A DNA stretch of 34,150 nt from Parcubacteria group bacterium GW2011_GWB1_45_10 (GTDB lineage: Bacteria > Patescibacteriota > Minisyncoccia > UBA6257 > Brennerbacteraceae). The notes beneath the pieces were generated by a model. The model was not told the DNA's origin, made no database searches, and saw nothing but the letters and a program-made list of their open reading frames with translations. The stretch spans positions 1 through 34,150 of the forward strand of contig LCKC01000004.1 of NCBI GenBank assembly GCA_001001185.1, read 5' to 3'. This document shows positions 16,927-33,172 of the stretch, piece by piece (positions within the stretch are counted from its first letter, which is position 1; every line of letters starts with the position of its first letter). Made by a program: the position numbers and the translations under genes.

Positions 16927-16941
16927 TCTCCCGAAGGGAGA
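16927..16941. repeat. 15-bp hairpin module TCTCCC-GAA-GGGAGA
   Basis: A 6-bp stem with a 3-base loop between dprA and topA. Identical design to modules at 24463-24492, 30233-30299 and 32373-32387. Confidence 0.6.
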
Positions 16942-24012: not shown

Positions 24013-24750
24013 ATGCCGACCATTCTGCCAAAACACGTAGCAATCATGCTTGACGGCAACCGCCGCTGGGCAAAGAAAAGAAAACTGCCTTCATTCCGCG
24101 GGCATTACCAGGGAGCCAAAACCCTTGAGTCTTTGATTGAAAACGCGGAAAAACTTGAGATTCCCTTTTTGACTTTTTGGGGCGGTTCAGCCGGCAACCT
24201 TTCAAAAAGGCCGGCCAGAGAAGTCAAAGCGCTGTTTGACGTTTACGGTACGTATTTCAAAAAGCTTTTGCGGCGCAAAGAAATTTTTGAAGAAAAAATT
24301 CGGGTGAGAATCATCGGCAGATGGGAGAACATGGTGCCTCAAAACGTCAAAAAGATTTTCCGCGAAGCGATTGAAAAAACGAAAAACCACAAAAAATATA
24401 ACCTGACGTTTTTAATCGCTTACGACGGTAAAGAAGAGATGCTAAGCGCTATCACTAAAATCTCCGCCAGAGGCGGATCTGCCGTAGGCAGAAAAAATCA
24501 GAAATCAAAAGCCAAAATTACCGAAGCCGAGCTTAAGCAAAATCTCTGGACCGGGGAGCTGCCGCCGGTTGATTTAATGGTTAGGACTGGCGTAGAAAAC
24601 GATCCGCACTGGTCAGCCGGATTTATGATGTGGCATTGCGCTGATACGCAGTTTTATTTCAGCAAAACTTTGTGGCCGGATTTCACGGTGAAAGAGTTTA
24701 AAAAAGCCTTGAAAAACTACGCCAAAACCCAGAGGCGGTTCGGAGGATAA
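24013..24750 (+). CDS. uppS: Isoprenyl (undecaprenyl) diphosphate synthase
   Basis: 245 residues, cis-prenyltransferase family. Conserved HVAIMLDGNRRWAK (catalytic Asp14), FRGHYQGAKTLE, the NLSKRPAREV block, LIAYDGKEE (NYGGR equivalent), and DLMVRTGVEN...FYFSKTLWPDF. It makes the C55-type lipid carrier for cell-wall and glycan export. Two oddities: the segment usually reading RTSGExRLSNFLLWQ is RTGVENDPHWSAGFMMWH, so the second diphosphate-binding Arg is not evident; and residues 151-160 (SARGGSAVGR) are encoded exactly by two 15-bp hairpin repeats at 24463-24492. The insert lies in a loop before the last helix block. Confidence 0.9.
   Translation: MPTILPKHVAIMLDGNRRWAKKRKLPSFRGHYQGAKTLESLIENAEKLEIPFLTFWGGSAGNLSKRPAREVKALFDVYGTYFKKLLRRKEIFEEKIRVRIIGRWENMVPQNVKKIFREAIEKTKNHKKYNLTFLIAYDGKEEMLSAITKISARGGSAVGRKNQKSKAKITEAELKQNLWTGELPPVDLMVRTGVENDPHWSAGFMMWHCADTQFYFSKTLWPDFTVKEFKKALKNYAKTQRRFGG
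24463..24492. repeat. Two 15-bp hairpin modules inside uppS
   Basis: TCCGCC-AGA-GGCGGA (24463-24477) followed directly by TCTGCC-GTA-GGCAGA (24478-24492). Both are in codon register, giving Ser-Ala-Arg-Gly-Gly and Ser-Ala-Val-Gly-Arg. Confidence 0.85.
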
Positions 24751-29546: not shown

Positions 29547-29575
29547 AATATAGCATAATCACTCGCTGATTTCAA
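29547..29575 (-). promoter_or_regulatory. Promoter of rplS
   Basis: Reverse strand: TTGAAA (29575-29570), 17-base spacer, TATATT (29552-29547), 15 bases before the rplS ATG. The -35 box lies within the last codons of the upstream pseudouridine synthase gene. Confidence 0.7.
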
Positions 29576-30404
29576 CGAGCGAGCTTAAAAACCCTGTAAG
29601 CTCTTTTGGCGTTTCCGCTTCAAAAGCATAATCCGTGTCGCCGTACCTAAACTCCAAAGATTTGGCGTGCAGAAAAATTCTTGGCAAGTCGTTTCTGAAA
29701 GACTTGGTCGTTTTTCTGCCATAAAGGTAATCACCCAAAACCGGATGGCCAATCGCCGCCAAATGAACCCTGATTTGGTGGGTGCGGCCGGTTTTTGGCT
29801 CAAGCTCAAGCAAGGAAAAAAAGTTTCCGTTTTTGTCTTTAAAGGTTTTTAAAAGCCTCCATAAAGTCCGGGCTTCCGAGTTTTTCTGCCCGGGCCTGAC
29901 CCTGGTGGTTCTTTTGGTTGAGGTTTTTGCTTTGGCAATCGCCAGGTTTATTTCGCCAAAGTTTTTGTTCATTTTTCCCAGAACCAAAGCCAGATAAGTT
30001 TTTTTAATCTCGCGGTTTTTAAAGATGTTTTTCAAAATCTCGAAAGCCTCCTGGGTTTTGGCGACAATCATGACGCCGGAAGTTTCTTTGTCCAAACGAT
30101 GGACAATTCCCGGACGGATCTCGGGATCGTCTCCGACAGATAATATCCCCGGGTATCTTTGCTTTAACCAGTCAACCAATGTGGAAGATTCCGGATTTAA
30201 GATTTTAGATTCAGGATTTTCATTGGAAATTGTCTCCCTTCGGGAGATCTGGCGTAGCCAGAAAAATTGTCCGCCAAGGGCGGATCCGCCTTTGGCGGAA
30301 GAATTGGAAATTCCTGTTGACGGAGAGTGCGTCAACAGGTTCGCTGGTTTTGAAATAACCAAAAACTCAGGGTTTTCAAAAATAACTTTTATGCTGGCGT
30401 CCAT
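29559..30404 (-). CDS. RluA/RluD-family pseudouridine synthase
   Basis: 281 residues. Catalytic motif GIVHRLDKETSGVMIVAKT (Asp105), then KTYLALVLG, the LELEPKTGRTHQIRVHLAAIGHPVLGDYLYG block and a final PRIFLHAKSLEF segment, all typical of the family that isomerises uridines in 23S rRNA or tRNA. The N-terminal S4 domain is missing. Residues about 31-74, between LLTHSPSTG and LVDWLKQ, are an insert not expected in the family: it is encoded by four 15-bp hairpin modules and AT-rich repeat DNA (30185-30312) and stays in frame. Which uridine is modified cannot be told. Confidence 0.9.
   Translation of the reverse strand: MDASIKVIFENPEFLVISKPANLLTHSPSTGISNSSAKGGSALGGQFFWLRQISRRETISNENPESKILNPESSTLVDWLKQRYPGILSVGDDPEIRPGIVHRLDKETSGVMIVAKTQEAFEILKNIFKNREIKKTYLALVLGKMNKNFGEINLAIAKAKTSTKRTTRVRPGQKNSEARTLWRLLKTFKDKNGNFFSLLELEPKTGRTHQIRVHLAAIGHPVLGDYLYGRKTTKSFRNDLPRIFLHAKSLEFRYGDTDYAFEAETPKELTGFLSSLVEISE
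30233..30299. repeat. Four 15-bp hairpin modules inside the pseudouridine synthase gene
   Basis: TCTCCC-TTC-GGGAGA (30233-30247), TCTGGC-GTA-GCCAGA (30248-30262), a 7-base spacer AAAATTG, TCCGCC-AAG-GGCGGA (30270-30284) and TCCGCC-TTT-GGCGGA (30285-30299). On the coding strand the last two read Ser-Ala-Lys-Gly-Gly and Ser-Ala-Leu-Gly-Gly, the same register as in uppS. Confidence 0.85.
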
Positions 30405-32344: not shown

Positions 32345-32400
32345 AATTATCAATTTTTCTGGTTACGTCAGATCTCGCACAGCGAGACAATTTTCAATTA
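32341..32400. repeat. Intergenic AATTG repeats framing two 15-bp hairpin modules
   Basis: CAATTATCAATTTT precedes and CAATTTTCAATT follows two adjacent 15-bp units: 32358-32372 (TCTGGTTACGTCAGA, imperfect) and 32373-32387 (TCTCGC-ACA-GCGAGA, perfect). The same combination of AATTG flanks and paired modules occurs inside the gene at 29559-30404. Confidence 0.65.
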
Positions 32401-32600: not shown

Positions 32601-32676
32601 GGTGGCTGTAGCTCAGTCTGGTTAGAGCGCCAGGTTGTGGCCCTGGAGGCCGGGGGTTCGAATCCCCTCAGTCACC
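32601..32676 (+). tRNA. tRNA-His (GUG)
   Basis: 76 nt including the extra 5' G(-1) that pairs with discriminator C73, the identity mark of tRNA-His. Acceptor GTGGCTG/CAGTCAC, anticodon loop TTGTGGC (anticodon GTG), T-arm GGGGG/CCCCT with TTCGAAT. Its 3' part is repeated twice downstream, at 32784-32802 and 33154-33170. Confidence 0.95.
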
Positions 32677-32682
32677 CATTAT

Positions 32683-32708
32683 AAAACGCAAACTGCTTTG
32701 CGTTTTTT
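32683..32708 (+). terminator. Terminator of tRNA-His
   Basis: 10-bp stem AAAACGCAAA/TTTGCGTTTT, loop CTGC, T run ending at 32708. The T run joins directly to the inverted copy of the tRNA-His T-arm. Confidence 0.8.
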
Positions 32709-32713
32709 GAGGG

Positions 32714-32789
32714 GATTCGAAAGACGGAGCTTGTCCCGAAGGGACGCGAGGCGGGGTCGCGAGTTGCGAAGCAAACTTGTGACCGAATC
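32714..32789. repeat. Palindromic tRNA-associated element, copy 2
   Basis: Begins GATTCGAAAGACGGAGC and ends TGACCGAATC, as at 178-277. Contains an internal hairpin GTCCC-GAA-GGGAC and GC-rich dyads. Flanks are tRNA-His T-arm sequence, inverted on the left and direct on the right. Confidence 0.65.
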
Positions 32790-32836
32790 CCCTCAGTCAC
32801 CCTTCGACAAGCTCAGGGTTTACTGAGTTTTGAAAT

Positions 32837-33109
32837 ATGAAATGGTTTGTTTACATACTTCTTTGTGATGAAAAAGCTTATTACGTAGGTCTAACTTCTG
32901 ATATTGAACAGAGATTAAAATCACATCATGCAGGTTACAACTTGGGGACTAAAGAATTTTCTAAAGTTCAATTGTTATATACTGAACAATATCAGAAGCG
33001 AATAGATGCAGAAAAACGTGAGAAACAGATAAAAGGCTGGGGCAGGAAAAAGAAAGAAGCTCTGATAATGCACGATTTGGAAAGCTTGAAAAAACTCAGT
33101 AAATCTTGA
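32837..33109 (+). CDS. Small GIY-YIG nuclease
   Basis: 90 residues, a stand-alone GIY-YIG domain of the UvrC/YhbQ-like group: WFVYILLCDEKAYYVGLTSD (the VYI and YVG strands), conserved Arg26 in DIEQRLKSH, and Glu60 in RIDAEKREKQIKGW. It has no DNA-binding or helicase extension. The gene is clearly more AT-rich than its surroundings. The right inverted repeat (33091-33112) runs through its last codons. Its position inside tRNA-derived repeats suggests it serves the spread of that element by cutting at tRNA-like sites; a general repair role, as proposed for some homologs, is the alternative. Confidence 0.88.
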   Translation: MKWFVYILLCDEKAYYVGLTSDIEQRLKSHHAGYNLGTKEFSKVQLLYTEQYQKRIDAEKREKQIKGWGRKKKEALIMHDLESLKKLSKS

Positions 33110-33172
33110 GCTGGCGACGCGACGAGGGGAATAATAGTGAGCCTGTCGAACCTATCCCCTCAGTCACCCAAG

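Follow-up and report, generated by a model that had tools for sequence, protein, structure and literature searches.

A 30-bp double-hairpin palindrome inserted in frame in uppS of a Parcubacteria bacterium, and its copies in many bacterial phyla

Rickettsia palindromic elements (RPE), reported from Rickettsia, are 105-146 bp long with long stem-loops, are open in the reading frame that is used, and occur also in RNA genes (PMC2229807). Together with their Wolbachia equivalents they are palindromic mobile DNA that lies between genes as well as within them, in frame in genes for conserved proteins. The element described here likewise occurs in frame in conserved protein genes, and it behaves like RPE. 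It differs in that the insertions are of exactly 30 bp, made up of two 6-bp hairpins instead of one long stem-loop, and in that it is found in many phyla. The original prediction had drawn the same parallel for a freely modular 15-bp hairpin; the similar behaviour and the far shorter length held up, while the free modularity did not.

REP sequences and REPINs are hairpins of 20-40 bp, often in inverted pairs and some of them inside genes, and include RPE-4 and RPE-6, short CGTC repeats found within genes (PMC3733652, PMC3116915). In contrast, the present element carries no GTAG or CGTC tag, has no linked RAYT and no sequence between its hairpins, and has a high coding share, with 90 of 183 copies in ORFs of at least 200 aa where REP/REPIN are mainly extragenic. 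Bacterial MITEs such as NEMIS, RUP and ERIC are about 100-200 bp, mostly with target-site duplications (PMC2229807). They too are non-autonomous, with palindromic ends, and are moved in trans; the element here is of 30 bp, and comparisons in genes and tRNA fragments gave no target-site duplication. The small dispersed repeats (SDR) of cyanobacteria, cited in PMC3116915, are very small mobile repeats; they are described from cyanobacteria, none of which is among the matches listed here.

We file the element as a variant within the small-palindromic-element kind. In the window the only Rfam model match was to tRNA. No description of the 30-bp element was found in the openly readable literature that was searched, and searching for the element sequence returned unrelated papers only, as judged by title. 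At 30 bp it would rank among the smallest mobile elements described. Our main reading, to which we give a probability of about 0.78, is that the uppS insert represents one copy of a non-autonomous mobile element of very small size, a palindrome of 30 bp whose enzyme is supplied in trans.

The uppS insert and its 30-bp unit

The whole stretch of DNA analysed (the window, 34,150 bp) is contig 4 of a 496-kb genome that is 93% complete. Both its genes and the range of organisms in which the element occurs indicate a member of the Candidate Phyla Radiation. Its uppS gene (undecaprenyl/isoprenyl diphosphate synthase; 24013-24750, + strand) carries a 30-bp double-hairpin palindromic element at 24463-24492 (+), composed of TCCGCCAGAGGCGGA followed by TCTGCCGTAGGCAGA and occupying codons 151-160 in frame as SARGGSAVGR. 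Both halves, TCCGCC-AGA-GGCGGA (24463-24477) and TCTGCC-GTA-GGCAGA (24478-24492), form a perfect 6-bp stem with a 3-base loop, and the two adjacent hairpins first noted at residues 151-160 were exact in sequence and coordinates. When uppS was aligned with 17 relatives (best about 60% identity) the insert was missing from all 17 homologues, which indicates that it was gained in this lineage; the contrary case, an insert conserved across the family, is contradicted by its absence from nearly all homologues. The left flank AAAATC (24457-24462, +) is repeated on the right at 24494-24499, forming an imperfect 7-bp direct repeat (6/7), and because the flanks read AAAATC...AAAAATC an insert of 10 codons and one of 12 are each compatible with the sequence. 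In the AlphaFold model of UppS the mean pLDDT is 90.3; residues 151-170 drop to about 62, with values under 50 at 157-160. This low-confidence stretch, mainly residues 151-170, sits at a helix end, and the drop in model confidence at the insert fits an added flexible loop.

Three further full elements are present in the window. Two lie in an ORF for an RluA-family pseudouridine synthase (29559-30404, - strand; translation ...NSSAKGGSALGGQFFWLRQISRRE...), at 30233-30262 (-) and 30270-30299 (-). The latter, of the exact TCCGCC type and encoding SAKGGSALGG, starts 37 bp after the former (30 bp plus AAAATTG). In a covariance model built from 12 local copies the element at 30233 scores 66.9 bits and the uppS copy 52.7 bits (E 3.3e-15). 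The fourth, at 32358-32387 (-), is intergenic; it lies upstream of tRNA-Val (32451), with heptamer-like CAATTTT repeats on either side. The modules that had been proposed in the RluA-family gene and before tRNA-Val are thus full pairs, two and one respectively. The module proposed before topA is there as a hairpin, though as a half-unit only: a single 15-bp half-element (16927-16941, inverted repeat I4, no strand assigned) directly precedes the gene, and its flank resembles that of 30233.

The hairpin itself is in clear excess, as had been anticipated. Perfect TC-N4-nnn-N4'-GA hairpins number 12 in the window against a mean of 0.8 and a maximum of 4 in 100 first-order Markov sequences, and 34 against 6.3 expected in 233 kb of the same genome, window included. 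The TC bias of the window hairpins is confined to 3-base loops, other loop lengths being without it. Tandem pairs, with up to two mismatches allowed over the pair, are enriched too: four occur in the window, none in the reversed sequence and none in any of 60 shuffles. The pattern TCN11GATCN4GTAN4GA had seven matches in the genome and none in the reversed control. Most of the single modules that stand free can be put down to chance together with decay.

What recurs as an insertion is the 30-bp pair, a near-perfect palindrome, and not the 15-bp module. A free 15-bp module as the mobile unit was rejected, since copies are fixed pairs and genes gain 30 bp (10 codons) instead of 15. The earlier argument that fifteen bases keep the frame gave the wrong reason; what preserves the frame is that 30 bp go in and the target site is not duplicated. 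From all loci fetched we gathered 193 distinct 30-bp copies, with the pair consensus TCCGCC-nnn-GGCGGA-TCCGCC-nnn-GGCGGA; TCCGCC was the common stem (323/374), a form that is favoured where loci were picked by pattern. The palindrome's loops vary, one being purine-rich and the other pyrimidine-rich, and the ancestral form was therefore probably a perfect 30-bp palindrome. Stems in the window's own genome have drifted to TCTGGC, TCTCGC, TCTCCC and others, with compensation. Across the stem covariation analysis 96.5% of cells were paired, and both sides had changed in 21 cells as against 7.5 in shuffles. Stems are kept, and loops are free to vary.

Spread and insertion sites

Of 61 genomes belonging to the same order, 41 contained the element when searched with the covariance model. 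Model matches, in which both strands of one copy are counted, number 33 in the window's own genome, 59 in G005, 55 in G018 and 46 in G003. The exact TCCGCC form (24 fixed bases) was found in at least 118 genome stretches from many phyla; the matches listed include many Patescibacteria, Omnitrophota, Kiritimatiellae, Lentisphaerae, Ignavibacteria, Auribacterota, Firestonebacteria, Chloroflexota and others. Among 287 genomes drawn as a sample of the phylum it was present in 17, and the reversed control gave 0 of 287. The genomes were sampled in part and nearly all are metagenome-assembled. Loops differ between the copies of one genome, and no recent identical copies or within-strain mobility were seen. 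Carriage by viruses was rejected, one viral contig in 2.9 million having the element.

Comparison with empty sites shows that the element enters cleanly, as exactly 30 bp with no target-site duplication, near dyad sites of the form TTY|RAA. An exact gain of 30 bp was found in RecG, DnaK, NifS, tRNA fragments and a tandem repeat. RecG of a same-genus genome reads KEF-SAKGGSASGG-GIEIALL where that of the window reads KNINIEIALL, and ten-residue gaps relative to homologues occur in many genes, including NifS, TsaD and the Ignavibacteria NYPNPF|NP sorting motif. At locus L159 a 54-bp tandem repeat has one copy broken by 30 bp and the other intact. About 12 copies break up tRNA-gene fragments, in most cases with an uninterrupted version close by, and the tRNA sequence is continuous across the junction. 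Interruption of complete tRNA genes was rejected: excision of any of the 193 copies never yields a full tRNA, the copies being in fragments. Empty targets include a tRNA-Cys anticodon loop, the T-loop GGTTCAAATCC and the recG site. The flanks show a preference with dyad symmetry, T at -2 and A at +2 in 82%. Paired flank positions had no covariation beyond this dyad preference, and TTY|RAA is therefore a choice of target and not a longer stem. In Ignavibacteria, different proteins (L160, L205, L215) are hit at the same NYPNPF|NP motif.

In DnaK, 2 of 60 genomes have a segment that is longer by 30 bp, and the rest are without the extra length. The surface loop concerned (L264, L277, L292) has the 30-bp palindrome in two genomes and other inserts in two more, 24 bp of unrelated sequence (around CCTTCGGCTGGCTCAGGACAAGG) in one and a 12-bp insert in the other; it is a hot spot at which tiny inserts of several kinds are found. 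Because G050, of the same family as G031, is without the insert, the DnaK pair probably represents independent insertions at the hot spot. At synonymous sites of the DnaK and L094/L145 pairs the stems differ at 1 of 16 codons, as against about half in the flanks. Constraint on insertions that two species have in common was set aside as evidence here, the DnaK pair being probably independent.

Seven-bp direct repeats flank about 31 of 186 copies (2 expected), mostly within 7-bp tandem arrays, and may reflect a duplicating mode for some copies. A 7-bp target-site duplication, an idea drawn from the 37-bp tandem units and the 7-bp flanking repeats, was rejected: the empty sites in genes and tRNA fragments show none, and the 7-bp arrays are a separate repeat class. 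These 7-bp-period arrays (AAATCCT, CAATTTT, TGGCAAA and others) are distinct and abundant, occurring in the window, L008-L018 and L078-L097, with 31 in 601 kb as against 5-7 for periods of 6, 8 and 9. Palindromes are often placed exactly between two heptamers.

Reading frame and protein context

The 90 copies in non-overlapping ORFs of at least 200 aa fall into the three phases as 80, 7 and 3, and the 80 read SAxGGSAxGG. Target preference alone predicts 49, 19 and 33%, and the bias is significant over this expectation (p about 1e-15). Within genes, copies outside the SAxGGSAxGG phase hardly ever survive, so that the in-frame placement and preferred codon register of small flexible residues, originally proposed from uppS, hold for the copies in long ORFs. 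In its other registers the TCCGCC form gives proline-rich or arginine-rich peptides. With 80 of 90 copies in one phase, selection accounts for most of the register, and we infer selection for a soft SAxGGSAxGG linker: purifying selection would remove the other registers and retain the linker. UppS, RecG, DnaK, NifS and similar proteins presumably stay functional with an extra surface loop.

The core proteins that carry the element are UppS, RecG, DnaK, NifS, ATP synthase beta and TsaD, in bacteria with very small genomes. The insertions constitute a natural experiment in how proteins tolerate inserted linkers, and a warning for the annotation and modelling of proteins from uncultured bacteria.

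Candidate mobilising enzymes and alternative origins

If the main reading holds, an enzyme supplied in trans would move the 30-bp palindrome of two hairpins (6-bp stems, 3-base loops), and the folded hairpins may be the feature that it recognises. What moves so small a piece of DNA without duplication is the question that this raises, and GIY-YIG genes and tRNA fragments offer a starting place. Of the enzymes that were tested, the small GIY-YIG endonucleases come out, tentatively, as the strongest candidates for making the break or for moving the element. GIY-YIG is the only nuclease family that recurs near elements, and no transposase recurs near the 183 copies. Seven elements lie within 300 bp of a GIY-YIG gene, where 1.5 are expected, although most elements are not near such a gene. 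At five loci (L017, L082, L012, L057, L181) the 5' part of a tRNA with the palindrome inside it is followed by 5-8 tRNA bases, a GIY-YIG gene and the intact tRNA, and a sixth adjoining fragment (L243) holds a 20-bp palindrome instead. The tRNA fragment usually ends 5-8 nt past the 30-bp palindrome, even where no GIY-YIG gene is present. The layout of the six loci suggests that GIY-YIG enzymes may cut where palindromes insert, but the association may also arise since tRNA fragments are neutral ground. Across 61 genomes the number of GIY-YIG genes is correlated with that of the element (rho 0.56, p 3e-6), and the window's own genome has 8 GIY-YIG genes and no Y1, IS110 or tyrosine recombinase match; the correlation may, however, be no more than a sign of genomes with much mobile DNA.

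A narrower form of the main reading would have small GIY-YIG homing endonucleases cut tRNA genes and TTY|RAA sites similar to them, with the palindrome carried or captured at the break. Known GIY-YIG homing needs flanking homology, and we regard this form as a tentative possibility. The fullest version, a new and gene-free kind of minimal mobile DNA of many phyla that does not duplicate its target, that tRNA-colonising GIY-YIG enzymes move in trans and whose register, coding for a flexible linker of ten residues, makes it protein-compatible, we consider doubtful.

The pair of inverted hairpins looks like a REPIN, and the element might be a REP/REPIN-type sequence reduced to two minimal hairpins and moved by a RAYT or another Y1 (HUH) transposase. 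Y1 genes are found in 16 of 61 relatives, where element numbers are somewhat higher (p 0.02). No Y1 gene, however, was found in the window's own 93%-complete genome or in the element-rich genomes G007, G029, G031 and G048, and none of 10 Y1 loci had an element within about 1.5 kb. Flank and element frequencies revealed no unpaired GTAG or CGTC tag, and GTA, the second loop of the uppS copy, takes that position in no more than 10 of 187 copies. Y1 enzymes use a one-sided target, unlike the symmetric target here. Taken together we judge this origin unlikely. Mobilisation by IS110 was rejected, an IS110-type recombinase being present in 0 of 61 genomes, and tyrosine recombinases are mostly one per genome, with none detected in the window's own genome.

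Ordinary transcription terminators or mRNA-stabilising hairpins of local origin are a highly improbable source: some single hairpins of the window do look like terminators (e.g. 507-521) and many copies are intergenic, but one and the same 30-bp motif turns up in different phyla and within housekeeping reading frames, is without a T-run, and leaves exact 30-bp gaps that local origin cannot yield. A conserved structural segment of the proteins, palindromic by chance, would accord with the single frame in 80 of 90 cases, yet this is scarcely credible for a sequence that is missing from nearly all homologues and is found between genes and inside tRNA fragments.

The window has its own example of the candidate mobiliser family. 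A small GIY-YIG endonuclease gene (32840-33055, +; E 2.6e-16) lies between two copies of the tRNA-His 3' end (32784-32802 and 33151-33169), the whole arrangement, led by tRNA-His, spanning 32602-33169; it is a tRNA-associated endonuclease cassette without the 30-bp palindrome. The short repeat TTCGACAAGCTCAGG (32803-32817) adjoins the tRNA-His fragment and occurs also at L016:8333. At L243 (440-600) a tRNA-Lys 5' fragment that directly precedes a GIY-YIG gene is interrupted by another perfect palindrome, of 20 bp, CCTGCCTGCCGGCAGGCAGG, and this 20-bp palindrome is found once more at L011:4853.
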